From: a virus
Virus record (IMG/VR): IMGVR_UViG_3300044800_000053
Location: 1 to 29,829 of that record
Strand: one strand, 5' to 3'
Length of the DNA: 29,829 nt
Below, one piece after another: positions 2,948-19,618 of the stretch. The notes under the pieces were generated by a model, which ran no database searches, was not told where the DNA came from, and worked only from the letters and a program-made list of their open reading frames with translations. Each line of letters starts with the position of its first letter. Positions within the stretch are counted from its first letter, which is position 1. The position numbers and the translations under genes are program-made.

Positions 2948-3019
2948 AGCCACCGATAGGATTTGAACCTATGACCTACCGCTTACAAGGCGATGGCTCT
3001 ACCGCTGAGCTACAGTGGC
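2948..3019 (-). tRNA. tRNA-Thr (anticodon TGT)
   Basis: A full cloverleaf is present on the minus strand. The acceptor is GCCACTG/CGGTGGC with one G-T pair, U8-A9 is followed by D-stem GCTC/GAGC, the anticodon arm is ATCGC-CTTGTAA-GCGGT, the variable loop is AGGTC, and the T-arm is ATAGG-TTCAAAT-CCTAT. The anticodon is TGT, reading ACA/ACN threonine codons. No CCA is encoded. It sits in the leftward operon right after the stop of the small zinc-finger gene and is followed by a terminator. Confidence 0.95.
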
Positions 3020-3483: not shown

Positions 3484-5124
3484 TCACCCTTGGCCTCCTT
3501 GTCTCCCGAACATCCACACCGGCCGCATCCCGTACGTCACTGCGGGGATCATGTCGGGGTGGTATGTGTCGTCGTCGATCATGCGCGTCAGACGGTCCTG
3601 CTCGTCGCGTGCGTACACCGTGCGCAGGCACTCCTCCCACAGAGGGCCGTCGCGTCGCACCTTGAAATGCCCCGTGCGCGCCTCGCCTTGCAACAACTCG
3701 AAGCCCATTTCCTTCTCTGCCTTGTACGCGGGGAGGATGGGCAGCTTGTAGGTTACGGCGAGGTCGTTCGGGGTGATCTTGTTCCCCCCAGTGTCGGCGT
3801 AGATGAGCAGGCTCTTGTTTTCTACGCGAGCGAACAGGGGAGACGTATTGATGTAATCTATGCCGGCCCGCGTGGCTTGCGCGATCTCCTCTGTGCTTTG
3901 CCGGCGGGCTTTCCACTCGTAGACGAGGAAGCGCTCGGGCCTGGTGATGCTGTAGGCGATGATTCCCAGTGCGTCGGCGTCCTCGAAGCCAAAGTCCATT
4001 CCGGCAGTGAACCGTATATCCGCGACCGACTGAGAGGCAACCCATGCGGAGAGCTCGTCATCCGTGAAGGCATTCGCGTCACCCAATCGAAGAACAAGCG
4101 CGTCGTCATCGTAGGCTATCCTCCCCAGGTATTCCCGCTGGTAGAGCGGGTCGGTCTCGCTGAGATTCTTCTCCGCGCGTATATTGGCAAGCACGTTCTC
4201 GTAGTCGGGTATGAATGGATTCTGCGATATGTTCCAGTTCAGCCGCATTGCGTTCGGATACAGCGGCTTTCCGTCAGACCACTGCCCGAGGTATAGCGCC
4301 TCCCAGTACGTTCCGCGCGTCCTCGGCCCCGTACCCCCGACAAGCAACTGGCCGTTGGTGTCGATAAGGGTCTGCGACAGGATGGACTCGATGAGGTAGA
4401 GCAGCTCCTTCTGCGACTGCGCCTCGTCGATGGCGATCCCGTCCCAGTACGGGCCGCGGTTTTTCTCCCTGTCGTCCTTGCTGCTATTTCCCCCGAACTG
4501 CATGAGCCCGCCGCCGTCCGTGACTATGCGCCCGTCTACCCGGCTGTGCTCTTTGATCTTGATGCCCAGCTCACCGAAGAGGTCGATCATCGGCTGCCAC
4601 ATGAGCCCCATGGCCTTCGTGATCGTCAGCCCAACGTACAGGCAGCGTGCGTTCGGCTTGCGGATGAACTTGTCAGCGAACCAGAGCAGGAACGCCTCCG
4701 TCTTCCCCGAGCGCCTGCCCGCCATGAGATACCCGTGCTTCGCCATGGAGAAGAGGATCTGCCGCTGTACGTCATGTGCACGCTTGTGCAATCGGTAGGA
4801 CAGGAATGCGGTCTCCCGCATCTCCCCACGGGTAAGCATCTCGTCGATCTCGTCGAGCACGTTTTCCTTGAACAGCCGTTCTGCGAGGAATCGCGCTTGC
4901 CACGTATCGGGCTTCTTCGCGTTCGTCTTGAAGTTGTTCAGGTAGCTGCGGAGGAACTCCTCCCCGTCCTTTCCTGCCATAAGCCCCTGGAATGCTTGCA
5001 GCGCGCGCTGCTTGTAGCCGGTCCCCGGCTTGCGTCCGACAGGATTACCGCTCTTGCCGGGCTGGAACATCTTCAAGTTCTTCTTTGCGGCTTCCTCTGT
5101 CTCGGGACTCTTGAAACGTGACAC
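3484..5124 (-). CDS. terL: Terminase large subunit (packaging ATPase/nuclease)
   Basis: I place the start at GTG 5124, which has GGAG seven bases upstream and lies just after the preceding stop; the open frame continues further but overlaps that gene. This gives 546 residues. The motor domain shows Walker A AGRRSGKT (about 135-142) and Walker B IAIDEA (230-235). The nuclease domain has acidic positions at D377 (AGMDFG), D444 (YADTGG) and D524 (YHPDMIP). It cuts and translocates phage DNA into the procapsid. The N-terminus (about 22-36) carries a PGKSGNPVGRKPG motif like DUF5681, usually found in separate small proteins next to terminases; no separate small subunit is seen. Confidence 0.92.
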   Translation of the reverse strand: MSRFKSPETEEAAKKNLKMFQPGKSGNPVGRKPGTGYKQRALQAFQGLMAGKDGEEFLRSYLNNFKTNAKKPDTWQARFLAERLFKENVLDEIDEMLTRGEMRETAFLSYRLHKRAHDVQRQILFSMAKHGYLMAGRRSGKTEAFLLWFADKFIRKPNARCLYVGLTITKAMGLMWQPMIDLFGELGIKIKEHSRVDGRIVTDGGGLMQFGGNSSKDDREKNRGPYWDGIAIDEAQSQKELLYLIESILSQTLIDTNGQLLVGGTGPRTRGTYWEALYLGQWSDGKPLYPNAMRLNWNISQNPFIPDYENVLANIRAEKNLSETDPLYQREYLGRIAYDDDALVLRLGDANAFTDDELSAWVASQSVADIRFTAGMDFGFEDADALGIIAYSITRPERFLVYEWKARRQSTEEIAQATRAGIDYINTSPLFARVENKSLLIYADTGGNKITPNDLAVTYKLPILPAYKAEKEMGFELLQGEARTGHFKVRRDGPLWEECLRTVYARDEQDRLTRMIDDDTYHPDMIPAVTYGMRPVWMFGRQGGQG

Positions 5125-5125
5125 G

Positions 5126-5467
5126 CTATCGCTCCAATAGTTCCGGGTTCTCGTAGATGTTGCCGATGACTTCGCATTCGTCCATTGGGCAGGAATACAT
5201 TTTTGGGTGACACCAGTGGAAAGCGGGACCAATGTCAAAGTCATCCCATTCAACGGGGCCTATGTCCTTAACCTTTGGATTTTGAAGAATATCCCCCTCG
5301 TAAATCTCCTTCCCGTTCTTGTCCTTCAGGCCAGTGTACTGCATGGGCTCCATATCGTTGGCAGAGCACATAGCAAGTACCCATGATGCGTTGACCTCAT
5401 CACCACGAGCACCGAAGACCATGCGTTTCTGTTGGGGATTCCACGCCCTGAACTTGATCTCTCTCAT
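5126..5467 (-). CDS. YopX-domain protein
   Basis: 113 residues from ATG 5467 (MREIKFRAWNPQQKRMV). The opening REIKFRAW motif, the central MQYTGLKDKNGKEIYEGDI block and the C-terminal EVIGNIYENPELL are hallmarks of the phage YopX family, widespread in phage early regions and of unknown biochemical role. The start overlaps the upstream stop (ATGA) and its TAG is one base before the terminase GTG. Confidence 0.93.
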   Translation of the reverse strand: MREIKFRAWNPQQKRMVFGARGDEVNASWVLAMCSANDMEPMQYTGLKDKNGKEIYEGDILQNPKVKDIGPVEWDDFDIGPAFHWCHPKMYSCPMDECEVIGNIYENPELLER

Positions 5468-8046: not shown

Positions 8047-8437
8047 TGAATGACTTCCTGCGATACTCTGCGCGGGCCGGCTTTGATGCGCTTCGATGTC
8101 CCATGCTGTCTACTGGGTGCGGAAGAAAGTCACGGCATGACTTGCAGTATTCGTCGTATACCTCGCGTCCACACCCTTCGACGGTTCCCGCCAAAGTGTA
8201 ATAGGAATCCTTGTCACCGAATGAGTGCTTGTAGAGTTGGCCTTTCGCTGGAGATTCCTGAGTGACCAGTTTGAAGATTGGCACATGCTCACAAAACTTC
8301 ATGAATTCAGGGTTTCCGTGAAGACGACATCCGTCGACTCCTGTCGACTGGCACTCGATGTAGTCGGCCTTCACCGTCTTCAGCTTGCCGTGACAGTTGG
8401 GGCACATGCCCTTGCCTATCATTTCCTTTACGTTCAC
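8039..8437 (-). CDS. Cys-rich zinc-finger hypothetical protein
   Basis: 132 residues from GTG 8437, overlapping the replication-gene stop (GTGA) with an AGGAAG site. An N-terminal CPNCHGKL motif pairs with later cysteines (IECQSTGVDGC), and further Cys pairs (GCGREVYDEYCKSC) suggest two zinc sites. Position between the replisome organizer and the VRR-NUC nuclease hints at DNA metabolism. No specific family recognised. Confidence 0.65.
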   Translation of the reverse strand: MNVKEMIGKGMCPNCHGKLKTVKADYIECQSTGVDGCRLHGNPEFMKFCEHVPIFKLVTQESPAKGQLYKHSFGDKDSYYTLAGTVEGCGREVYDEYCKSCRDFLPHPVDSMGHRSASKPARAEYRRKSFSD

Positions 8438-9195
8438 CGCTTCCTGCCTTTCTGAATACTACCGCCTCTATCCTGGGCACGCTTGAGCCAATTGACTATG
8501 AAACGAGAGTAATTGCTCTTGTGCCCACGGGCCCCGTTTGTCTTGCACCACTCACCCATCTGCCGCAGTTCCATGTCAACGTCAACAGCAGGGTAAGCCT
8601 CAGCCCATAGTGCTACCTGTTCGTCTGCTATACCGTACCACATGGATTCAGAGAAGTTGTAGGTGACAGGCGCGGCCTTTGTACGCAAAGCCGTGCCAGA
8701 AGATGTACTCATCTTCTGCTCTTTCTTTTCTTCTGAGTCTGAGTCTGAGTCTGAGTCTGAGTCTGAGTCTATTGCGTCACGTGACGCCACAGTAACGTCA
8801 CATGGTAGAGATTTTAGCCTTTCTCTATATTTTTGGGTGCGTTCTCGGTTCAATTGACGTACATGTTCCATGCCATTTACGTTCTGATGCTTTTCCCAGT
8901 TGGTTAACGTAATGATTTCTTCATGCATGTATATCATCCCGAGACGCTGTAACGCTTGTAACGTCACACGAACTATCTCCACAGGCTGGTCAAAAACCTT
9001 AGCCAGCATGTCCGCGGTGAAGGCAATTTCGGGTGTCAGGTAGACGTTTCCGTTGTCGTTGACCTTGCCTGCCAGTACGATCAACTGAATCCACATCAAG
9101 CATATTTCCGAGCCCGACGGCATCGAACGAATGACCTTTATTTTCTCATCGTCGAACATGGCAGTCGAGAGCTTGACCCAGTGGATTTCAGACAC
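8434..9195 (-). CDS. Phage replisome organizer-type replication protein
   Basis: 253 residues from GTG 9195 behind AAGGAG. The N-terminal 110 residues (IHWVKLSTAMFDDEKIKVIRS, then MWIQLIVLAGKVNDNGNVYLT, ending TLTNWEKHQNV) match the phage replisome-organizer N-terminal domain, a winged-helix origin-binding module. A six-fold Asp-Ser linker (143-154) joins it to a C-terminal helical domain (about 175-245, WAEAYPAVDVDMELRQMGEWC) of the type that loads host helicase. It likely initiates phage replication with host DnaB-type helicase. Confidence 0.85.
   Translation of the reverse strand: MSEIHWVKLSTAMFDDEKIKVIRSMPSGSEICLMWIQLIVLAGKVNDNGNVYLTPEIAFTADMLAKVFDQPVEIVRVTLQALQRLGMIYMHEEIITLTNWEKHQNVNGMEHVRQLNRERTQKYRERLKSLPCDVTVASRDAIDSDSDSDSDSDSEEKKEQKMSTSSGTALRTKAAPVTYNFSESMWYGIADEQVALWAEAYPAVDVDMELRQMGEWCKTNGARGHKSNYSRFIVNWLKRAQDRGGSIQKGRKR
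8735..8770 (-). repeat. Hexanucleotide repeat, six units, in replication gene
   Basis: Six perfect copies of GAGTCT (plus strand) encode the Asp-Ser linker of the replication protein. The repeat keeps the reading frame whatever the copy number. It separates the DNA-binding and C-terminal domains. Confidence 0.95.
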
Positions 9196-9333: not shown

Positions 9334-10137
9334 TCACTTCCGCCTCCCCTTTGCAAGCACGTCCTCCGGGGCGAGCTCGTTGTGAACGTACGTACTGCTT
9401 GTGATTTCCACTGAGCTATGTCCCATGTACTTCGATACCGCGGTGAGATCCTTCCCCTCGGCCAGCATCCGCGTTGCCCAGGTATGGCGACAGCAGTGCG
9501 CTGACACCGTGCGCCCGATTGCCTTCAAACTGGCCCGGCGGATGCGGTTGGTGATCGTGGTGCGGTTGCCCGTGAAAGATGGCGCCTTGCCCCGCCAGTA
9601 CACCCTACGCTCCTTATTTCCCTTGCCTTGCAGCCTCACCTCACAGTGGTCTCCTGCCGTTTTCACGTCTTTCGCCATAATGCCCAGCGCCTCGGAGATA
9701 CGGCACCCCGTCCCGAGCATGAAACGCACGATAGCTGCCGTCCCGGGGTCCAGCGCTGCCAGGACGGCCCGCTCCTCCCCCCGCGTGAGTACCTTCTCCC
9801 TCCCCACGGCACGCGCCTGAACCTTCGGCGGCTTCAGCGCCTTCAACGCCTCTTCGATGCGGAATCGCGTGGCGGTGTCCATATTTGGGCTATGCATAAT
9901 TATGCGCCTAATGCATGACTTCGCGGCACTGATCTTGTGCGCACAGGTACCCGCCGTCCATCCCTTGCCCCCGCGGTCATGCACCACGTGCGCATGGTAC
10001 TGCTTCAGCGCGTCCTCCGTCAGCCCGCCGTGCTTGTCCAGGAACGCCACGAGGTTCACGGCGTCTCGGTAGTACACGCTGTCCCGCGGCGGGATCATGG
10101 CCGAAAGCGGGGATCCGCGGAGGGAGAGACTACTCAT
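9334..10137 (-). CDS. int: Tyrosine recombinase / integrase
   Basis: 267 residues from ATG 10137. An N-terminal SAM-like core-binding domain (about 20-105, SVYYRDAVNLVAFLDKHGG) precedes the catalytic domain. All catalytic residues are seen: R146 (GTGCRISEAL), Lys in GKGNKERRV (about 172-175), H214 and R217 (SAHCCRHTW), H240 (YMGHSS) and nucleophile Y250 (SSTYVH). It is shorter than lambda-type integrases and lacks an N-terminal arm-binding domain, more like XerC/D-type enzymes. It could integrate the phage or resolve genome multimers. No repressor gene is evident to prove lysogeny. Confidence 0.93.
   Translation of the reverse strand: MSSLSLRGSPLSAMIPPRDSVYYRDAVNLVAFLDKHGGLTEDALKQYHAHVVHDRGGKGWTAGTCAHKISAAKSCIRRIIMHSPNMDTATRFRIEEALKALKPPKVQARAVGREKVLTRGEERAVLAALDPGTAAIVRFMLGTGCRISEALGIMAKDVKTAGDHCEVRLQGKGNKERRVYWRGKAPSFTGNRTTITNRIRRASLKAIGRTVSAHCCRHTWATRMLAEGKDLTAVSKYMGHSSVEITSSTYVHNELAPEDVLAKGRRK

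Positions 10138-10365: not shown

Positions 10366-10366
<1 letters not shown>
10130..10366 (-). CDS. Small hypothetical protein upstream of integrase
   Basis: 78 residues from ATG 10366, overlapping the TAA of the repeat-protein gene (TAATG), and its own end overlaps the integrase start by 8 bases. It is helical and charged, with YPYQQAVAWRARLRT in the middle. Function unknown. Confidence 0.65.
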
Positions 10367-10607
<241 letters not shown>

Positions 10608-10611
<4 letters not shown>

Positions 10612-10868
10612 TTTACTTTTCCGAAACTCTCAATAGCCGACAGTTGTACGTACCATTCCCCGCCCGGTAGTTTCTGCGCGTCCTTCCAACCCTTCTCGTT
10701 GAAAGCTCCCGTCTCGTACACAATAGCCGCATCGGTGAGGAGCACGCACGTATCGTTCACCCCTGACAGCTTTCCCGTGTAGATGTAGTTGGCGCAGAAA
10801 AGCGTGATTGGTTCCCCAAGAAACTTCTCAAGGCCCTCACCCTCAACCTGTTCAACAATCTTCTTCAT
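10608..10868 (-). CDS. Phage small conserved-type protein, possible Sm-like fold
   Basis: 86 residues from ATG 10868 with a GGGGGAAG ribosome binding site. The block ITLFCANYIYTGKLSGVNDTC followed by VLLTDAAIVYETG resembles a recurrent phage protein. Its alternating strands (short strand, tight turn, GVND-VLL-DA-IV) look like the Sm/Hfq core pattern. The Sm-like reading is inference. A bipartite regulatory motif lies 44 bases upstream. Confidence 0.65.
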
Positions 10869-10911: not shown

Positions 10912-10937
10912 TTTGAAACATTCCTGTTGTTTTGTTT
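10912..10937 (-). promoter_or_regulatory. Bipartite motif, copy A
   Basis: Plus-strand TTTGAAACAT, an 8-base spacer (10922-10929) and TTTTGTTT; on the coding strand AAACAAAA-N8-ATGTTTCAAA. It is upstream of the 86-residue gene starting at 10868 and overlaps the RNA ligase stop codon. The two boxes contain inverted AAACA/TGTTT half-sites, so it may be an operator, promoter element or RNA hairpin. Confidence 0.6.
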
Positions 10938-11487
10938 AGGCGTCGTGTCCCTTTCCCGAGTCGTCTTTCTCTATTGTCTTCTTGAAGTAGAGGCGACCCT
11001 GAATGTGGAAGATCACCACACCCTCGGGCTTCATGAATCCGGGGGCGGCGGAACTTCCCACTCTTTCCAGTGTGTTAAGGACGCTTGCTATTTGATAGGT
11101 GTCGAACGGCCCTTCGTAGAGGATGGGGACGCAATCGCAGCACCTTGGGCGCGCTACCTCGGCAGACCATTTCGACGTGTTGAACAGGGAGAATCGCTTG
11201 CGGTCCTGACCATACCTGCGCTGTATTCCCTGTCCCCACCATTCCCCGTAGTGACGGCCAACGCCGAGCCCCTCCCGCAATTCCTCCGCATGTTCGGCAA
11301 CCCATCGCGCGAAACCGAAATTGTCATCCTCCGGTGTGATCCATCGTGTTCTGCTTCCCGCAATAACGCGCCCGTCTTCCATGACAAGGATGCAACCGTT
11401 TGTCCCGTCGATTTTCTCCGTCACCACGCATTCACGCGATAGGCGAGGTATCTTCGTGAACTCCTCAAATAAAGGTGTGTCAATCAT
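10936..11487 (-). CDS. ATP-dependent RNA ligase (Rnl2-like)
   Basis: 183 residues from ATG 11487 behind a strong AAGGAGGAG site. Nucleotidyltransferase motifs are in order: motif I EKIDGTNG with adenylated K25, a GSRTRW segment (44-49), motif IIIa GEWWGQG (81-87), motif IV PEGVVIF (154-160) and motif V FKKTI (168-172). This is a minimal RNA-ligase-type adenylyltransferase core without the C-terminal domain of T4 Rnl2. Phage RNA ligases repair tRNAs cut by host defence nucleases. Here it shares the genome with a tRNA and a Ro60/Y RNA island. Confidence 0.87.
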   Translation of the reverse strand: MIDTPLFEEFTKIPRLSRECVVTEKIDGTNGCILVMEDGRVIAGSRTRWITPEDDNFGFARWVAEHAEELREGLGVGRHYGEWWGQGIQRRYGQDRKRFSLFNTSKWSAEVARPRCCDCVPILYEGPFDTYQIASVLNTLERVGSSAAPGFMKPEGVVIFHIQGRLYFKKTIEKDDSGKGHDA

Positions 11488-11499
11488 GTTTCTCCTCCT

Positions 11500-11525
11500 T
11501 TTGAAACATAAGGAAAGTTTTGTTT
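11500..11525 (-). promoter_or_regulatory. Bipartite motif, copy B
   Basis: Same two boxes as copy A (TTTGAAACAT and TTTTGTTT on the plus strand) with an unrelated 8-base spacer (11510-11517). It lies 12 bases before the RNA ligase ATG, next to the AAGGAGGAG ribosome binding site, and overlaps the stop of the upstream gene. Here the half-sites extend to GAAACA/TGTTTC. Confidence 0.65.
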
Positions 11526-11785
11526 CATTTCATATCTTCGGTAGGCTCTTCAAAGGTAAGATCAAAAACAGGGAGAACGCTTCCTACATAGTGACGATCT
11601 CCGAACTCCGACAAAATCCAGTGCACTTGACTTTTGTACCAATCTCCACGCCACGGGTCCGGGGCATACTTAAAATCGAATTGAGGGTTTGCACTGTGAA
11701 AAGACGTAGCTTTTTCTCCGAGTATTCTCTTCCCACTTTCGGAAAGTTTGAAATAGATCGTGTCATTCAATGAATGTGTTATCAT
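11525..11785 (-). CDS. Hypothetical protein, 86 aa
   Basis: Starts at ATG 11785 with GGGAGGAG upstream. The sequence is mixed alpha/beta, with FDFKYAPDPWRGDWYKSQVHW in the middle and an acidic C-terminus. No family recognised. With the RNA ligase gene it lies between inverted copies of TTTTGTTTAGG (10930 and 11809). Confidence 0.6.
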   Translation of the reverse strand: MITHSLNDTIYFKLSESGKRILGEKATSFHSANPQFDFKYAPDPWRGDWYKSQVHWILSEFGDRHYVGSVLPVFDLTFEEPTEDMK

Positions 11786-11823
11786 ATCTCTACTCCTCCC
11801 TAAACAAAACCGACAGAATGTGC

Positions 11824-12165
11824 TCAGCCACGCGCGTTCTCACGGTCGATAAGTTCGTTGATCTTAGCTATAATAGGCTCAGCCACGGAATAGGCGTAGT
11901 CAATTGGCTGTTCCATCCGCGCAATCTTCCCGGGCTTCTTGGCAAGCACGCACTCTCCACCATGGGGGTGATGATAGCCACATCCAGAGCACGGCTTCCC
12001 ATCGCCACGGGAACGGATCATATTTAGGGCATCATCGAAAGCTCCAATAGAATCATACCCGTAGAAAATAGCCCTCAACTTTTCTACTATCCTCTCCCGC
12101 TCCCGCTGGACGGCCTTGACTATCTCAGATGTAACCAAGGTAGGCAAGAGAGAACAGCGGCCCAT
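11824..12165 (-). CDS. Hypothetical protein with CxxC-His motif
   Basis: 113 residues if read from ATG 12165. The ribosome binding site there is weak and an in-frame TTG at 12144 is an alternative. A helical N-terminus (IVKAVQRERERIVEKLR) is followed by CSGCGYHHPHGGEC, a probable zinc-binding knuckle, then a C-terminal helix. Function unknown. Confidence 0.6.
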   Translation of the reverse strand: MGRCSLLPTLVTSEIVKAVQRERERIVEKLRAIFYGYDSIGAFDDALNMIRSRGDGKPCSGCGYHHPHGGECVLAKKPGKIARMEQPIDYAYSVAEPIIAKINELIDRENARG

Positions 12166-12242
12166 GCTTCGTCTATTTCAAGACGACCACACATCTGCGC
12201 CCTTGCTATTGCCTCCAGCTTAGAGGCATCCACTACTCTCAT
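12120..12242 (-). CDS. Small hypothetical protein, 40 aa
   Basis: ATG 12242 overlaps the upstream TGA (ATGA) and has GGGGGTGA upstream. The peptide MRVVDASKLEAIARAQ continues into a Trp- and Leu-rich C-terminus and overlaps the next gene by 46 bases. Coding status rests on the coupling and the lack of any other use for this stretch. Confidence 0.45.
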   Translation of the reverse strand: MRVVDASKLEAIARAQMCGRLEIDEAWAAVLSCLPWLHLR

Positions 12243-12517
12243 GACTCACCCCCGAAGACCTTAGCTATCATCTCGTCCAGTTTTGCGTTGTATTTATCCG
12301 CCCCGCAATCGCATTCGTCTCCTTTGCTATCATTACAACTTCCATCCTCTGCCTTTGGGCATGAATACCAACTGTCCTCACAATAGTCATGAGCGCGGCG
12401 TGATTTCTTTAGAAAAGCAAGTATCTCTTCGCGCAGGGCGTCTACTTCTGAAGCAAGGTAGACGGCAGTCGGCCCCAAGTGTTCAGTATCCAACCAATCC
12501 GCAACGTACTTCTTCAC
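12239..12517 (-). CDS. Cys-rich acidic hypothetical protein
   Basis: 92 residues from GTG 12517 behind AGGAGGAG. After a helical first half comes a cluster of cysteines (YCEDSWYSCPKAEDGSC, then CDCG), similar in style to small phage proteins with a metal-binding loop. The C-terminus is helical. Function unknown. Confidence 0.65.
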   Translation of the reverse strand: MKKYVADWLDTEHLGPTAVYLASEVDALREEILAFLKKSRRAHDYCEDSWYSCPKAEDGSCNDSKGDECDCGADKYNAKLDEMIAKVFGGES

Positions 12518-12518
12518 C

Positions 12519-12710
12519 TCACTCCTCCTGACTCGCTACCATCGCGTCCCAGATCATGTCTGAGGCGATGTCCCAAAACACGCGTCCCAGTATCGCCGCC
12601 ACCTTAGACCGAACATCGGGGTCGGGTATCAGCGTGGCGAGTTCATCGCGGCGCCCTATGAAGATGTCAGAAGGATATGGATTCACCGGCCACCAATCGG
12701 GACGTTTCAT
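12519..12710 (-). CDS. Hypothetical protein, 63 aa
   Basis: ATG 12710 overlaps the preceding TGA and has GGGGGAGGAGAA upstream. The protein begins MKRPDWWPVNPYPSD and continues with a helical, aromatic C-terminal half (GRVFWDIASDMIWDAMV). No family recognised. Confidence 0.6.
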   Translation of the reverse strand: MKRPDWWPVNPYPSDIFIGRRDELATLIPDPDVRSKVAAILGRVFWDIASDMIWDAMVASQEE

Positions 12711-13051
12711 TTCTCCTCCCCCTGTTGCGGCGGCTGCACGGCGAGGGCGGCGTCCCTGAACTCGTTCACGATGGTATCTCTGATTCCCCGTGCATCCGTC
12801 TCGCCTGTTTCCCGTGCCTCGTTGATGATCTTCACGGCAAGGTCGCTTGCCTGCTTCCACACCTCCCGCAGCCCATCCCCGCGCGGCTCCTCCCGATGCT
12901 CACTCTGCCACCTCTCTGCCATGGCGCGGAGGCTTGCACCGCACGAATATAATACAGCTTCCCGTGGGTTCGCCGTTCCGTCGTCAACGGGGTCACCACG
13001 CTCCATCCAATCGTCCGCCAGCGCCAGGATGTCTTTTGCGTGGTCACTCAC
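12707..13051 (-). CDS. Helical hypothetical protein, 114 aa
   Basis: I choose GTG 13051 because AAGGAGG lies six bases upstream; the longer frame to 13108 sits inside the previous gene. The protein is mostly helix with many charged residues (VSDHAKDILALADDWMERGD). A C-terminal AALAVQPPQQGEEK overlaps the next start. Function unknown. Confidence 0.6.
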   Translation of the reverse strand: MSDHAKDILALADDWMERGDPVDDGTANPREAVLYSCGASLRAMAERWQSEHREEPRGDGLREVWKQASDLAVKIINEARETGETDARGIRDTIVNEFRDAALAVQPPQQGEEK

Positions 13052-13490
13052 GGGGTACCTCCTTACCACCGAAGGGGAGAAGGGCATCACATAAATAGCC
13101 CATGTCAACGCTATCTACTTCGGAGTCAAGGCCGGGTGTAATGCAGAGATGTCTAACCACACACCGCGCCGCCTTAACAAGCGCCTGTATCCGTGGCTCA
13201 TTCTCCTTCACCGCCGCTGTCAGTTCGGATACGTCCTCCTCAGCATCACGCAAGCACCGTTGAAGGGATTCGCAATCAAGTTTGCAGTTCTCAAGTTTCC
13301 CCTCCGCTTTCTCGGCGCGGCCAAACTCAAACTTGCAGTCCTTCTCACGGTCTGCAAGAGAAGCTTCCGCGGCGGAGAGGTCTGCTATGATTCTCTTTAT
13401 TGCTTCTCGCGTGTCATCATCACTGACATCAGCGAAAGAAGCTGGAGAATCTCCAAAATACAACCAGTGCGTCCACTCCTCAGCTTTCAT
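13044..13490 (-). CDS. Coiled-coil hypothetical protein
   Basis: 148 residues from ATG 13490 behind AAGGAGGAG and bipartite motif copy C. The N-terminus (MKAEEWTHWLYFGDS) is followed by a long charged heptad-rich region (about 35-110, with ADREKDCKFEFGRAEKAEGKL), strongly coiled-coil in style. The C-terminus carries hydrophobic and Cys residues. No family recognised. Confidence 0.65.
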   Translation of the reverse strand: MKAEEWTHWLYFGDSPASFADVSDDDTREAIKRIIADLSAAEASLADREKDCKFEFGRAEKAEGKLENCKLDCESLQRCLRDAEEDVSELTAAVKENEPRIQALVKAARCVVRHLCITPGLDSEVDSVDMGYLCDALLPFGGKEVPRE

Positions 13491-13740
13491 GCTCTCCTCC
13501 TTTTGAAACATTCTCCCTCTTTTGTTTAAGCCTTGCTGATGGGCATTTCCTAACGCTCCACCATCTATGCCAGAGCGTGACAATCCTAACCCGGCGATAC
13601 GTGCAGAAATCAAGCGTGTCAACGCACACAACAAGTCCCGCCGACTTGGCGCCGGTCCAGTGCCAGCACTTCCAGCATTGCGGTTTTTTCTTCCCGGGCC
13701 ACGATAGATGCTTGATCGCGTTGACTGGTTTACAACTCAT
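13480..13740 (-). CDS. Cys/Trp-rich small hypothetical protein
   Basis: 86 residues from ATG 13740, preceded by a GGGGGGG-rich site. CWKCWHW and CVDTLDFC make a plausible metal-binding pair. The last 20 codons run through bipartite motif C and the next gene's ribosome binding site, which is odd: either the motif is embedded in coding sequence or the gene is slightly shifted. The gene lies between inverted TTTTGTTTAAG/CCTAAACAATA boxes. Confidence 0.5.
   Translation of the reverse strand: MSCKPVNAIKHLSWPGKKKPQCWKCWHWTGAKSAGLVVCVDTLDFCTYRRVRIVTLWHRWWSVRKCPSARLKQKRENVSKGGEHES
13502..13527 (-). promoter_or_regulatory. Bipartite motif, copy C
   Basis: TTTGAAACAT, 8 bases of unrelated sequence (13512-13519), then TTTTGTTT on the plus strand. 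It lies 11 bases before the start of the coiled-coil gene. The identity with copy B extends through the ribosome binding site for 19 bases in total. Confidence 0.65.
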
Positions 13741-13780
13741 TCACAATTCCCCCCCTAAACAATAGAACCGTTATGTTCGC

Positions 13781-14566
13781 TCACGGCTTCCGGTAGACGT
13801 AGAACACGCCTTCGACATCGCACAGCAGCCCGTAGCCTTTCTGCCACACGGCCCACCGGGCTCTGGCGTGGTCCATGTGCTTCTTGTCGAGCTTGTCAGC
13901 TACGACTATGCATCGAGCAAGTAGAGCGGCGTCCCGTGCGGCGGCCCATGCGGCGTCCCGTGCGGCGGCCCGTGCGGCGTCCCGTGCGGCGTCCCCTGCG
14001 GCGGCCCATGCGGCGGCCCCTGCGGCGGCCCCTGCGGCGGCCCCTGCGGCGTCCCGTGCGGCGGCCCATGCGGCGGCCCCTGCGGCGGCCCCTGCGGCGG
14101 CCCCTGCGGCGGCCCATGCGGCGGCCCCTGCGGCGGCCCATGCGGCGGGATCTGCGGCGTCCCCTGCGGCGGCCCCTGCGGCGGCCCATGTCGTGAATAC
14201 CTTCCACGCCTTGAGTGTCTTGCCCTTGCCAGAGAAAAACGGAACGTCCTTTATCGTCGCGACAAACTCCATAGCGTCGTAGAAGAATTGCCGTTTCTTC
14301 CGCCACTTCGGCAATTCTGCGCGCACCATCTCCTCTTCCGTTTTCTTGGAGAACCATTCAGGCTTCGTTGGCTGGTCAATGCAAAACTCCCACTCAGTGA
14401 ATGGCTTGAAGTAGTCTCCATTCGGCGGGACCATCTCCACTCTGACAAAGTCAGACTTCCGCTTGTCGTCCAAGTGGTGATGGGCTATGATCTTCTCATG
14501 GCTATCGTCTGATGGATGCCATAGAACCTTCTCCCTCGTGACTACAAAGCTCGCCAGTCTGCACAT
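13781..14566 (-). CDS. Phage protein with Ala-rich tetrapeptide repeats
   Basis: 261 residues from ATG 14566 behind AGGAGGAGGAAGG. The N-terminal 120 residues (MCRLASFVVTREKVLW) look like a normal globular phage domain ending at KAWKVFTTW. A run of about 88 residues follows in four-residue units AAxA with Trp, Gly or Arg at one position and Ala or Asp at the next, then a normal C-terminal segment (ARWAVWQKGYGLL). Such Ala-rich inserts occur in phage proteins of similar start, as far as I recall. Predicted to be a long helix. Function unknown. Confidence 0.75.
   Translation of the reverse strand: MCRLASFVVTREKVLWHPSDDSHEKIIAHHHLDDKRKSDFVRVEMVPPNGDYFKPFTEWEFCIDQPTKPEWFSKKTEEEMVRAELPKWRKKRQFFYDAMEFVATIKDVPFFSGKGKTLKAWKVFTTWAAAGAAAGDAADPAAWAAAGAAAWAAAGAAAGAAAGAAAWAAARDAAGAAAGAAAGAAAWAAAGDAARDAARAAARDAAWAAARDAALLARCIVVADKLDKKHMDHARARWAVWQKGYGLLCDVEGVFYVYRKP
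13926..14189 (-). repeat. 12-base tandem array, 22 units
   Basis: 22 head-to-tail units of plus-strand form GCGGCKKCCCNT. Variation is almost confined to two places: G/T at one base (Ala versus Asp) and A/C/G at another (Trp, Gly or Arg in an NGG codon). One unit differs further (GCGGCGGGATCT). All units preserve the frame of the 261-residue protein. Confidence 0.95.
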
Positions 14567-14578
14567 TCCTTCCTCCTC

Positions 14579-15127
14579 CTATCTCAATCTTCGCCAAAGG
14601 TACAGCGCCAGCGATTCGTAGCGCCGTGCCAAAGCACGCCCCTTCTCTATGCTCCGCGTCGGGGAACCGCTGTTGTAAAAGCTATAAGCAACGGCAATAG
14701 AAGGGGCGGAGACTTGCTGAGCTCGTGTCATAGTCGCGTGGCCGTCACGTTTCTCTACCTCCGCCCCCAAGGGCAGAGCGCCGAATCGAACGGCCCCTCC
14801 GGCTACCTGGCGTCCGCGCTGCCTGCCGGTGCGTCCACCTTGAACGCTAACTCTGCACGACTTCTCTAAACACGCCTTCCAGAACTCCGCACCGTAGACT
14901 ATGTGCGCCAAAAGCTCGTCGCGATACTGCGGATGGCACACGCTCCAGAGCTGCCACAAGCCCCACGATGTCCCGCCCTTCTCCTCCCGCTTGCACGCAG
15001 TGACAGAGAAATTGCTCTCAAACTCAACCACGCACACGCCCGATAGCCCTGCCATGTCATAGACGGTACTGACCAACCCAAAGGGCCGGTGAAGTAGCAA
15101 GGCTATGAGCAGGGCGCATTCAGGCAT
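14579..15127 (-). CDS. Lysozyme / lytic transglycosylase-like protein (endolysin candidate)
   Basis: 182 residues from ATG 15127 (TAATG overlap). A hydrophobic N-terminus (ALLIALLLHRPFGLV) could act as a signal or signal-arrest segment. Next come VVEFESNFS with candidate catalytic E37, then GGTSWGLWQLWS (51-62), the pattern of soluble-lytic-transglycosylase folds, and a late YNSGSPTR motif (151-158) like the AYNxG block of that family. It would cleave the glycan strands of peptidoglycan. It sits apart from the main lysis block. Family assignment is by motif order only. Confidence 0.75.
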   Translation of the reverse strand: MPECALLIALLLHRPFGLVSTVYDMAGLSGVCVVEFESNFSVTACKREEKGGTSWGLWQLWSVCHPQYRDELLAHIVYGAEFWKACLEKSCRVSVQGGRTGRQRGRQVAGGAVRFGALPLGAEVEKRDGHATMTRAQQVSAPSIAVAYSFYNSGSPTRSIEKGRALARRYESLALYLWRRLR

Positions 15128-17434: not shown

Positions 17435-17712
17435 GCCATCACCCTCTTTCTCTGTAGGGAGCGCTCCAAGTCGAAGCGCCAGATAATCTGCGCCTCTACC
17501 TGCGCCTGATCATGCTTGCTGAGGCTGTCGAAGCGAATCGGGAAGCCTTCGTCGTCCATCAGCCTCACGTTGTGTACCGCCGTCCTGCGCGCAGTCTCCC
17601 CGAAATGCGGGGAGTCAGCCGAAACGTGCGGAGCCTGCCGCCCCGGCACCACGCAACACGCAGCCATCGCCAGCCTGCCGTGCAACTCAAGGGACGTGTT
17701 GTAGGAGATCAC
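17431..17712 (-). CDS. Hypothetical early protein, 93 aa
   Basis: GTG 17712 overlaps the stop of the first leftward gene (GTGA). The protein begins ISYNTSLELHGRLAMAACC; the second half is helical and charged (LSKHDQAQVEAQIIWRFDLE). It is the second gene of the leftward early operon. No family recognised. Confidence 0.6.
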   Translation of the reverse strand: MISYNTSLELHGRLAMAACCVVPGRQAPHVSADSPHFGETARRTAVHNVRLMDDEGFPIRFDSLSKHDQAQVEAQIIWRFDLERSLQRKRVMA

Positions 17713-17831
17713 TTCTTCCCCCTCGGCCGCCCGCCCTTTTTCCCGTTCTCGCGGGAAGCGGTAGCCTTCTTCTCTGACTTGATTTTAGATATGCGCTTCA
17801 GGTGCGCCAGCAATTCCCTTTGCGTCATCAT
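17709..17831 (-). CDS. Leaderless small basic protein with GRP motif (copy 1)
   Basis: 40 residues from ATG 17831 (39 from the adjacent ATG at 17828). The protein is very basic, with a helix (ELLAHLKRISKIKSEKK) followed by ASRENGKKGGRPRGKK, an AT-hook-like GRP end, suggesting DNA or RNA binding. The -10 hexamer ends seven bases upstream of the ATG, so the transcript should start at or within a base or two of the start codon, as in leaderless repressor mRNAs such as lambda cI. A similar protein is encoded on the other strand at 19566-19688. Confidence 0.7.
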   Translation of the reverse strand: MMTQRELLAHLKRISKIKSEKKATASRENGKKGGRPRGKK

Positions 17832-17838
17832 GGGGCAG

Positions 17839-17867
17839 ATATTATCCTATCGACGGTAGGTTGTCAA
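17839..17867 (-). promoter_or_regulatory. Leftward sigma-70-type promoter
   Basis: On the minus strand TTGACA (17862-17867), a 17-base spacer and TAATAT (17839-17844). It fires into the leftward early genes. The spacer contains a 15-base dyad that could be an operator. Confidence 0.8.
17846..17860. promoter_or_regulatory. Dyad operator candidate in promoter spacer
   Basis: CCTATCGACGGTAGG is a 15-base inverted repeat with one non-complementary pair, centred on 17853 between the -10 and -35 of the leftward promoter. A protein bound here would block RNA polymerase. No matching copy was noticed at the rightward promoter. Confidence 0.5.
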
Positions 17868-17870
17868 TAG

Positions 17871-17903
17871 AGAATATTTATTTATTATTTGGATATATAT
17901 TCT
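17871..17903. promoter_or_regulatory. A/T-rich dyad between divergent promoters
   Basis: AGAATAT (17871-17877) and ATATTCT (17897-17903) are exact inverted repeats separated by 19 A/T-rich bases. They lie 3 and 2 bases outside the two -35 hexamers. They could act as UP elements for both promoters or as a binding site that controls both. Confidence 0.5.
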
Positions 17904-17905
17904 TG

Positions 17906-17934
17906 TTGACATTCCTGACGTGTCGGGTTAATAT
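17906..17934 (+). promoter_or_regulatory. Rightward promoter of the Y RNA / Ro60 island
   Basis: TTGACA (17906-17911), a 17-base spacer and TAATAT (17929-17934): the same hexamers and spacing as the opposite promoter. The expected start near 17941 coincides with the first base of the first Y RNA-like hairpin, as expected for an RNA that needs no leader. Confidence 0.85.
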
Positions 17935-17940
17935 CGTGTC

Positions 17941-18007
17941 ATTAGGGTGGTGAAGGGTACGGCTACTTCATGCAGGAAACACGCCGTATCCGTTCGTTCC
18001 CCCTATT
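17941..18007 (+). ncRNA. Y RNA-like RNA 1 (short)
   Basis: The hairpin begins at the predicted transcription start. Lower stem TAGGG/CCCTA (17943-17947 with 18001-18005), bulged T17948, GG/CC, internal loop TGAA against GTTCGTT, then a 9-bp helix 17955-17963 with 17983-17991 (one G-T pair) and a terminal region with a TTC/GAA mini-stem. The lower half has the same bulge and 4-by-7 internal loop as RNAs 2 and 3. No strong U-tract follows, so it may be processed from a longer transcript. Confidence 0.65.
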
Positions 18008-18019
18008 CTTTGAAATATG

Positions 18020-18166
18020 AAGCCGTGGCGAAAGAAGTGGGATACTTCACTGTTAATGAAGAGGTCGTTGGTTCGAGTCCAACCGTGTAGGCGCAAGCCT
18101 GCATGTAGCTCAGTTGGCAGAGCGCTGGCGAAAGCCGCTCCCAGTTCGACTGATCCCGGCTTTTTT
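18020..18166 (+). ncRNA. yrlA: Y RNA 2 with circularly permuted tRNA-Asn-like module (YrlA-type)
   Basis: Ro60-binding stem: AAGCCG/CGGCTT (18020-18025 with 18157-18162), bulged T18026, GG/CC, loop CGAAA against GACTGAT, GAA/TTC, a G-G mismatch, and TGGGA/TCCCA. The 5' strand resembles the conserved CGAAGG-type element of animal and bacterial Y RNAs. Inside lies a tRNA-like module: anticodon arm with loop CTGTTAA (18045-18061), variable AGGTC, T-arm with TTCGAGT (18067-18083), acceptor strands 18084-18092 and 18097-18105 joined by GCAA, U8-A9, and D-arm 18108-18123. A GGC-GAAA-GCC hairpin completes the loop. In characterised systems the tRNA-like end binds PNPase-type effectors. Confidence 0.85.
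18155..18166 (+). terminator. Intrinsic terminator at 3' end of Y RNA 2
   Basis: The 3' strand of the Y RNA basal stem (CGGCTT) runs into six T residues (18161-18166). The basal helix of the RNA therefore doubles as the terminator hairpin, a common layout for small RNAs. Confidence 0.75.
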
Positions 18167-18176
18167 GTAGACAATA

Positions 18177-18251
18177 GGGCTTGGCGAAGGTTGACGGTTC
18201 CTTCAACTGTGGATTGAAATAGACCCGTCTCCGTTTATTCCAGCCCTTTTT
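18177..18251 (+). ncRNA. Y RNA 3 (short, without tRNA module)
   Basis: Basal stem GGGCT/AGCCC (18177-18181 with 18242-18246), bulged T18182, GG/CC, loop CGAA against GTTTATT, GG/CC, a TT/T mismatch, and GACGG/CCGTC (18193-18197 with 18225-18229). It ends in a TTCAA-CTGTGGA-TTGAA hairpin. The Ro-binding half matches RNA 2 element by element but the tRNA-like module is replaced by a simple hairpin. It is followed by five T residues and then the Ro60 ribosome binding site. Confidence 0.8.
18240..18251 (+). terminator. Terminator / attenuator before Ro60
   Basis: The basal stem of Y RNA 3 ends CCAGCCC followed by TTTTT (18247-18251). Because no other promoter was found before the Ro60 ATG at 18269, Ro60 mRNA probably arises by read-through. 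Binding of Ro60 to the nascent RNA could alter termination. Confidence 0.65.
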
Positions 18252-18268
18252 ATTTGAAGGAGGAAGGT

Positions 18269-19618
18269 ATGGCGAGGGTGAATCTAAGTCCTACGGTCTC
18301 CATCAGAACGCACGAAGGCGCACCGGCACGGCGCATCAATCCCGAGCAGAAACTACGCCGATCCGTCATGGCGTGCCTACTATGGGAAAACACCTTCTAT
18401 GAGGAAGGCGCAGACATCGCAACACGGATAGCGGAGACAGTCCGTCTCCTCCCCGCGGAGAAGGTTTCCGCTATCGCTATCGAGGCTCGGTCGAAGATGA
18501 ACCTTCGGCACGCCCCCCTGCTGCTGGCCCGCGAGATGGCACGTACGTTCCACGGCAAGATCGTTGCCGACACCATCGAAGCCGTAGTCCAGCGCGCGGA
18601 TGAGCTGGCAGAGTTCCTTGCCCTGTACTGGAAGGACGGACGGCAGCCACTGTCCGCGCAGGTCAAGAAAGGTCTCGCGCGAGCATTCGTAAAGTTCAAC
18701 GAGTACCAGCTCGCCAAGTACAACCGCGACAACGGCGTGAAACTCCGCGACGTTCTCTTTCTCTGCCACGCAAGGCCGAGGGACGCCGAGCAGGAAGCAC
18801 TCTGGAAGCGGCTGATCGATGGCACCATTGCTATCCCCGACACCTGGGAGACGGAACTGTCCGCCGGCAAGGACAAGCGGGAGACGTTTTCTCGCCTTAT
18901 GGTGGAGGGAAAGCTCGGCGGGCTTGCGCTTCTCCGCAATCTGCGCAATATGGGCGAGGCTGGCGTACCCACCGGAGAGATAAAGGCCGCAATCATCAGG
19001 ATGCGCACAGACAGGATTCTCCCGTTCCGTTTCGTTGCCGCTTCCCGGTACGCCCCCGCCCTTGAGCCTCAGCTTGAGGAGGCGATGTTCAGGAACGTGA
19101 AGGATCTCGGGGAACTGAGCGGAGAAGTCACCGTCCTTGTTGACGTATCTGGATCGATGAATTCCAAGCTGTCCGAGAAAGGCGATCTGACACGAATAGA
19201 TGCCGCCGCCTCGCTTGCCATGATACTCCGCGAGGTATGCCAGAACGTCAACGTGTACGCCTTCTCTGACCAGTTGGCTATCATCCCCCCGCGCCGCGGA
19301 TTCGCTCTCCGTGATGCCATCGAGAAGTCACTCCCGCATGGCGGTACCTATCTCGGAGCGGCAGTCCAGAAGGTGGGGCAACTGCATCCGAACGCCATGC
19401 TTGTCACCATCACCGACGAGCAGAGCCACGATGCCGTACCGAACCCGGTAGGACGTGGATTCCTGATCAATGTGGCAAGCAATCAGAACGGCGTCGGGTA
19501 TGGGAAGTGGACGCACATTGACGGGTTCTCGGAGAACGTCGTACGCTACATCATGGAGTCGAGCATTGAGAGACACGCTTCGGGAACACCTGAAACGCAT
19601 AGCGAAAATAAAGAGTGA
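18269..19618 (+). CDS. rsr: Ro60 / Rsr orthologue (TROVE and vWA domains)
   Basis: 449 residues from ATG 18269, directly behind AAGGAGGAAGG; a TTG five codons earlier is inside that site and not used. The N-terminal two thirds are the TROVE HEAT-repeat ring that binds Y RNA on its outer face and RNA 3' ends in its hole. The C-terminal vWA domain has a complete MIDAS: DVSGS (D292, S294, S296), T360 in HGGT and D383 in TITDE. It is shorter than typical Ro60 (about 530). Known bacterial Ro60 proteins work with Y RNA and PNPase in RNA decay. It lies downstream of three Y RNA-like genes on the only plus-strand island in the window. Confidence 0.92.
   Translation: MARVNLSPTVSIRTHEGAPARRINPEQKLRRSVMACLLWENTFYEEGADIATRIAETVRLLPAEKVSAIAIEARSKMNLRHAPLLLAREMARTFHGKIVADTIEAVVQRADELAEFLALYWKDGRQPLSAQVKKGLARAFVKFNEYQLAKYNRDNGVKLRDVLFLCHARPRDAEQEALWKRLIDGTIAIPDTWETELSAGKDKRETFSRLMVEGKLGGLALLRNLRNMGEAGVPTGEIKAAIIRMRTDRILPFRFVAASRYAPALEPQLEEAMFRNVKDLGELSGEVTVLVDVSGSMNSKLSEKGDLTRIDAAASLAMILREVCQNVNVYAFSDQLAIIPPRRGFALRDAIEKSLPHGGTYLGAAVQKVGQLHPNAMLVTITDEQSHDAVPNPVGRGFLINVASNQNGVGYGKWTHIDGFSENVVRYIMESSIERHASGTPETHSENKE

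Follow-up and report, generated by a model that had tools for sequence, protein, structure and literature searches.

The window analysed here is the whole record IMGVR_UViG_3300044800_000053 of IMG/VR, a tailed phage of 29,829 bases in which nearly all genes are leftward. It raises the question of what acts on a short bipartite sequence recurring at the borders of its small genes. A first-pass annotation had described this sequence as TTTGAAACAT-N8-TTTTGTTT, present at 10912, 11500 and 13502. Exactly three matches are indeed found in the window (10912-10937, 11500-11525 and 13502-13527), and the pattern was recovered in 0 of 100 dinucleotide shuffles. That census had missed two further copies in the opposite orientation, ACAT-N8-TTTTGTTT at 11802-11821(-) and ACAT-N8-TATTGTTT at 13757-13776(-). 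With at most one mismatch, ACAT-N8-TTTTGTTT has five copies for 0.03 expected, and five copies were obtained in 0 of 100 shuffles. These counts refute chance or an AT-rich coincidence, an explanation to which we give next to no credit. A single copy of the same exact string is present in each of 22 stretches from other viral contigs, but these stretches contain 20-39% G+C and the string is located within an open reading frame (ORF) in all 19 that were examined, and these matches were rejected as fortuitous.

All five sites follow a single plan of 28 base pairs (bp), 11-6-11, composed of an 11-bp arm, six variable bases and another 11-bp arm. Each site is read here from the TAAACAAAA side, in the order arm R, spacer, arm L. 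Site S1 (10913..10940, minus strand) is CCTAAACAAAA-CAACAG-GAATGTTTCAA and overlaps the stop codon of ORF 10936-11487. Site S2 (11501..11528, minus strand) is ATGAAACAAAA-CTTTCC-TTATGTTTCAA; it overlaps the stop codon of ORF 11525-11785 and precedes the start of ORF 10936-11487 by 13 bp. Site S3 (11799..11826, plus strand, in the opposite orientation) is CCTAAACAAAA-CCGACA-GAATGTGCTCA, between ORF 11824-12165 and ORF 11525-11785. Site S4 (13503..13530, minus strand) is CTTAAACAAAA-GAGGGA-GAATGTTTCAA, in the 3' end of ORF 13480-13740, with the start of ORF 13044-13490 following 12 bp further on, and site S5 (13754..13781, plus strand, again in the opposite orientation) is CCTAAACAATA-GAACCG-TTATGTTCGCT, between ORF 13781-14566 and ORF 13480-13740. 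The gap had been given as eight unrelated bases of constant length; the constancy holds, but the two bases adjoining ACAT are TC or AA in the five sites. Because arm L contains GA or TT at these two positions in 5/5 sites, the free centre is better defined as six bases. No two of the five spacers are alike, the best pair sharing 4 of 6 bases. Arm R is better conserved than arm L, whose outer half is free in S3 and S5. The inverted pair AAACA/TGTTT, also noticed in the first pass, is present in the three exact copies, whereas S3 and S5 retain the TTTTGTTT-side arm and ACAT with a weaker dyad. A search for repeated 8+8-mers with a gap of 4 to 12 bases, in the window outside low-complexity repeats, revealed only isolated two-copy matches and no second family with fixed arms and a variable spacer.

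With a probability of roughly 0.45, a tyrosine recombinase of the Xer/Int class binds these sequences and uses them for crossover, as core-type sites that bound exchangeable gene modules. This reading is supported by the fixed arms, the exactly constant gap and the variable centre, observed in the five sites of the window and in the site of a related record (G001, see below). It explains the 11-6-11 plan, the two orientations, the bracketing of single genes, the proximity of a recombinase gene and the position of the site in G001. The idea of a two-headed DNA-binding protein, put forward in the first pass, also fits well, since the arms are conserved, the centre is free and the spacing is exact in 6/6 sites including that of G001. 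The first pass had noted neither the bracketing of single genes nor the recombinase close by, nor the related site next to a recombinase gene.

The nearby enzyme is a tyrosine recombinase of 267 amino acids encoded at 9334..10137 on the minus strand (PF00589, 1.6e-20; PHROG integrase, 2.3e-27), and its catalytic residues are complete (R146, E149, K172/K175, H214, R217, H240 and Y250). Among solved proteins, those most similar to it in sequence are IntI4 (the best), XerD and XerA, and in fold XerH-difH, the fold ranking being weakly supported because of a high root-mean-square deviation over the full length. In the predicted model (mean pLDDT, the predicted local distance difference test, of 72.5; pTM, the predicted template modelling score, of 0.58), the catalytic domain is well predicted and the N-terminal domain poorly. 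Judging from its length and alignment, the protein probably lacks the arm-binding domain of lambda-type integrases; Xer, Cre and IntI also lack this domain and act on core sites alone. The enzyme is thus a candidate binder of the sites, and would be the most likely one, with the host Xer as a conceivable substitute. Two protomers would occupy the two 11-bp arms and the six free bases would constitute the crossover segment. An accessory unit would then run from an arm through a ribosome-binding site and an ORF to a stop codon situated within the following arm or close to it. As a module, it could be gained, lost or inverted by recombination between its site and one located elsewhere whose spacer matches. 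We infer that binding, cleavage and module movement would proceed by this recombinase route.

The units delimited by the sites are of several kinds. Module A (10366..10868, minus strand) contains an ORF of 86 codons (10608-10868) and an ORF made of a 6-nucleotide repeat, S1 being located 44 bp upstream of the former. Module B (10936..11487, minus strand) is an RNA ligase (PF09414, 7.1e-17) with S1 and S2 at its ends in the same orientation. Module C (11525..11785, minus strand) is another ORF of 86 codons, with a G+C content of 0.425 and a match to phrog_11677 (8e-4), and is bracketed by the inverted pair S2/S3. Modules D to G (11824..13490, minus strand) are tightly packed ORFs without gaps, with S3 and S4 at the ends. 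Module H (13480..13740, minus strand), a further ORF of 86 codons with no family in Pfam or PHROG and no phage match, is bracketed by the inverted pair S4/S5. Two one-gene units, C and H, are enclosed by inverted site pairs. The succession along the coding strand is L-R (S5), unit H, R-L (S4), G to D, L-R (S3), C, R-L (S2), RNA ligase, R-L (S1) and A. Arm R is thus innermost at both ends of units H and C, arm L is innermost for unit D-G, and B lies between direct repeats. Three of the four neighbouring site pairs alternate in orientation and one is like-oriented; as at least three alternations of four are expected by chance in 5 of 16 random arrangements, the alternation alone is no proof.

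The position of the sites relative to the genes can be read in other ways. Of the 14 ORF junctions between 10130 and 15723, only four have a gap of more than 30 bp, and each of these gaps contains a site directly before a ribosome-binding site; S4, the remaining one, covers part of the 3' end of the called ORF 13480-13740. The earlier statement that each of the three copies lies upstream of a leftward gene is correct for the ORF starts at 10868, 11487 and 13490, but the 13502 copy is at the same time within the end of a gene. Such a location would suit operators, each site being bound by a dimeric regulator, or one with a tyrosine-recombinase fold, that controls or prevents accessory-gene transcription. 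This is the main rival and a real possibility, without being the explanation that we favour. The orientation of the sites relative to the genes is nevertheless mixed, and the divergent junction 17712-18254, the expected place for a master operator, is devoid of sites.

The same borders could also be reused intergenic linkers, spread by homologous recombination and marking old gene junctions without any dedicated binding protein. Arm R of S1 and of S2 contains the stop codons of ORFs 10936-11487 and 11525-11785, ribosome-binding sites adjoin the arms of S2 to S5, and S2 and S4 share the stretch with the ribosome-binding site that follows arm L. Copied linkers would however share their spacer, whereas in all six sites the central bases vary freely while their number stays at six, which renders this explanation highly improbable.

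Improbable too is the special promoter suggested in the first pass, in which the two halves would be the boxes recognized by a phage or alternative sigma factor. The sites are upstream of genes, their gap is fixed, and the S1 region forms an AT-rich island (G+C of 0.31) in a genome of 57% G+C. No sigma-70-like match (-35 and -10 hexamers spaced by 16-18 bp) covers any site, however; the number of promoter-like sequences in the region (4) is not far above the shuffle mean (1.8, standard deviation 1.3); two of the five copies are reversed relative to co-directional genes; and no gene for an RNA polymerase or a sigma factor was detected among the ORFs scanned.

Conservation was analysed in four related records obtained by searches with the portal and the RNA ligase, G001 (18,178 bp), G002 (35,208), G003 (34,843) and G004 (20,106), of which G002 to G004 may be fragments. 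Their terminase and portal display 42-66% protein identity with those of the window (3484-5253 and 876-2645, respectively). A PF00589 recombinase was found in the window and G001 only (2 of the 5 records counting the window, 2 of the 18 records searched). Site and recombinase occur together in both records that carry the recombinase, and neither is present in the three others. The expectation of conservation in relatives is consequently borne out for one record of four, the only one with a recombinase.

With a matrix built from the five window sites alone, G001 gave a single match, TTGTAACAAAA-GATAAA-TAATGTTTCAT, at 24.1 bits, the best of 200 G001 shuffles reaching 20.8. The best scores in G002, G003 and G004 were 6.7, 12.7 and 15.5 bits. 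Over 162 loci (2.0 megabases), G001 came first at 25.8 bits; loci fetched with the motif itself went up to 25.4 and the next independent locus scored 19.8. The G001 site immediately adjoins the first codon of a recombinase ORF of 166 amino acids reduced to the catalytic domain (L030 2791-3291), and homology of this protein to the window enzyme begins at most 11 codons from the site. The catalytic residues of the G001 recombinase are aligned and present, and no clear ribosome-binding site was seen for it. The position of the site is that of either a recombination scar or an operator at the gene start, the latter agreeing with autoregulation. Two weaker candidates were discarded. One is a weak second half-site before the RNA ligase of G001, which scored 7.3 bits and was left out of the site count. 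The other is a site-like match in G003 at 18160, which is inside an ORF and not among the best matrix matches of that record.

The kin records also inform on the flanked genes. These are accessory and have few kin matches, whereas terminase and portal have the identities indicated above. Among the ORFs between 10608 and 14566, matches in kin were obtained only for the 86-codon ORF of module A (80%, in G003) and the RNA ligase (81%, in G001), and the ORFs tested between 11525 and 14566 have no homologues in the four records. The RNA ligase is 81% identical in G001 for a terminase at 59%, and the DNA similarity is restricted to the ligase gene. The 86-codon ORF 10608-10868 and its repeat ORF have an 80% copy in G003 at a different place and on the other strand, and a homologue of the former at 77% is encoded by the phage record MW202825.1. 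From these comparisons, the RNA ligase and the pair of module A look like mobile units.

Several observations weigh against site-specific recombination. Rearrangements of pdif sites have been seen between identical or nearly identical spacers, according to PMC13141974. The five spacers of the window all differ, so that by analogy the sites should not recombine with each other; under an Xer-like rule, this would argue against present-day shuffling within the genome, exchange with other molecules carrying a matching spacer being possible. The XerD arm and arm L have ATGT(T) in common and agree at 4-8 of 11 positions, arm R agrees with XerC at only 3-5 of 11, and the XerD consensus is absent from the window at up to two mismatches. 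The mobile homology of module A extends as far as 10879, which leaves 33 bp before S1, and no site accompanies the copy in G003; this counts against movement of the module by the sites. Neither rearranged forms nor empty sites nor an attB were detected, and the co-occurrence of site and recombinase is thin, G001 being one record. In addition, enrichment of the motif as a host dif is not clear in 198 + 198 genomes from two possible host phyla, those of two bins with distant kin portal genes: 29 matches in 25/198 genomes for about 28 in the controls, which were counted by eye, and 9/198 for 4.

The operators, for their part, are favoured by the near-dyad AAACA-N12-TGTTT and by the fact that variable centres are normal for such elements, even if the arm symmetry of S3 is weak (3 of 11 positions). 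They have precedents in phages. In the Bacillus phage SPbeta, the short intergenic SPBRE elements are repeated and bound by the repressor MrpR, which has a tyrosine-recombinase fold (PMC10516654). SPBRE is a 15-bp motif, and MrpR is devoid of catalytic residues that are kept by the window enzyme. The cluster K mycobacteriophages contain SAS and ESAS repeats just upstream of start codons, the latter inverted with a variable spacer (PMC3203893). As described there, the ESAS repeats have 17 bp, a spacer of 4-13 bp and a link to the 13-bp SAS, whereas the gap in the window is of constant length; the SAS sequence GGGATAGGAGCCC has no match in the window at two mismatches or fewer. Stoperators (PMC9283540) constitute another precedent. 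Among the 30 window ORFs scanned with Pfam, no helix-turn-helix repressor was detected, the only candidate domain being that of the replisome organiser (8434-9195).

Returning to recombination sites, the closest anatomical counterparts are the dif modules of Acinetobacter plasmids, whose pdif sites are recognized by XerC/XerD. PMC13141974 describes sites of 28 bp, 11-6-11, with a variable 6-bp spacer, in both orientations, with like arms inside and small accessory genes between them, and the bracketing logic of the window is that of their C, D and fused CD dif modules. Unlike these modules, the present sites are phage-borne, do not match the XerC consensus and match that of XerD only partly, and have spacers that are all different. 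Since the plan agrees and the arm sequence does not, we have not filed them as dif modules and the resemblance remains anatomical. Integrons have been reported in phages (PMC9892861), and the window recalls their cassette arrays by its small co-directional ORFs, its site-like borders and a recombinase whose best solved sequence match is IntI4. Integron attC, a long imperfect palindrome with R boxes, differs from the present sites, which have about 28 bp, occur in both orientations and, as read by eye, are without GTTRRRY/RYYYAAC boxes. A more specific proposal, which we regard as rather unlikely though worth stating, is a phage-borne gene-module system in which a minimal phage-encoded recombinase and its own 11-6-11 site family with changing spacers would assemble promoterless accessory genes in an early operon, as a viral counterpart of dif modules and neither an integron nor a host dif. 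No description of such sites in phages was found in the open-access literature searched.

If the sites are recombined, they would offer this phage family a site-specific route to the acquisition of single accessory genes (morons) at exact gene borders, with modules and boundaries open to test. If they are operators, they would constitute a regulon of several sites in phages for which no repressor has been recognised, and a protein of integrase fold may govern it. With either reading, the 28-mers and one candidate protein provide a concrete handle.

Wider searches added little. A de novo bipartite search in G001 to G004 and 51 loci (L112-L133 and L031-L059) detected no comparable multi-copy family. 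In L042, a perfect inverted repeat GTGAGCGC-N6-GCGCTCAC with an operator-like appearance occurs twice, at 924 and 1016, with differing N6. Searches for kin with the window integrase alone or with gene C gave nothing useful, plasmids gave no DNA match, and the prophage search matched only two bin contigs, which left the host unfixed. The motif is absent from the two genomes with distant kin portal genes.

Concerning module A, a repeat tract of short period comes after the 86-codon ORF in all three places, the window (10366-10868), G003 (14479-15001) and MW202825.1 (5395-5649, L148), the ORF being 77-80% identical. This pair appears to move between phages that otherwise differ. The tract of the window reads SGSWSRS-like, and the ORF is unannotated in the GenBank record MW202825.1. 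The G003 pair is located in the structural region, behind a promoter-like TTGCAA-N18-TATAAT read by eye. The predicted structure of the module A protein (pLDDT 43.5) was not used. Beyond S5, ORF 13781-14566 (minus strand) contains a long Ala/Trp-rich repeat (AAWAAAGAA...) and no Pfam family. The product of the large rightward gene 18254-19618 (plus strand) is TROVE/Ro60-like and contains a vWA domain (PF05731, 3.2e-15); within the window, no Y RNA attained an Rfam gathering score. Finally, a tRNA gene is present at 2948-3019 (minus strand), at the right edge of the portal region.

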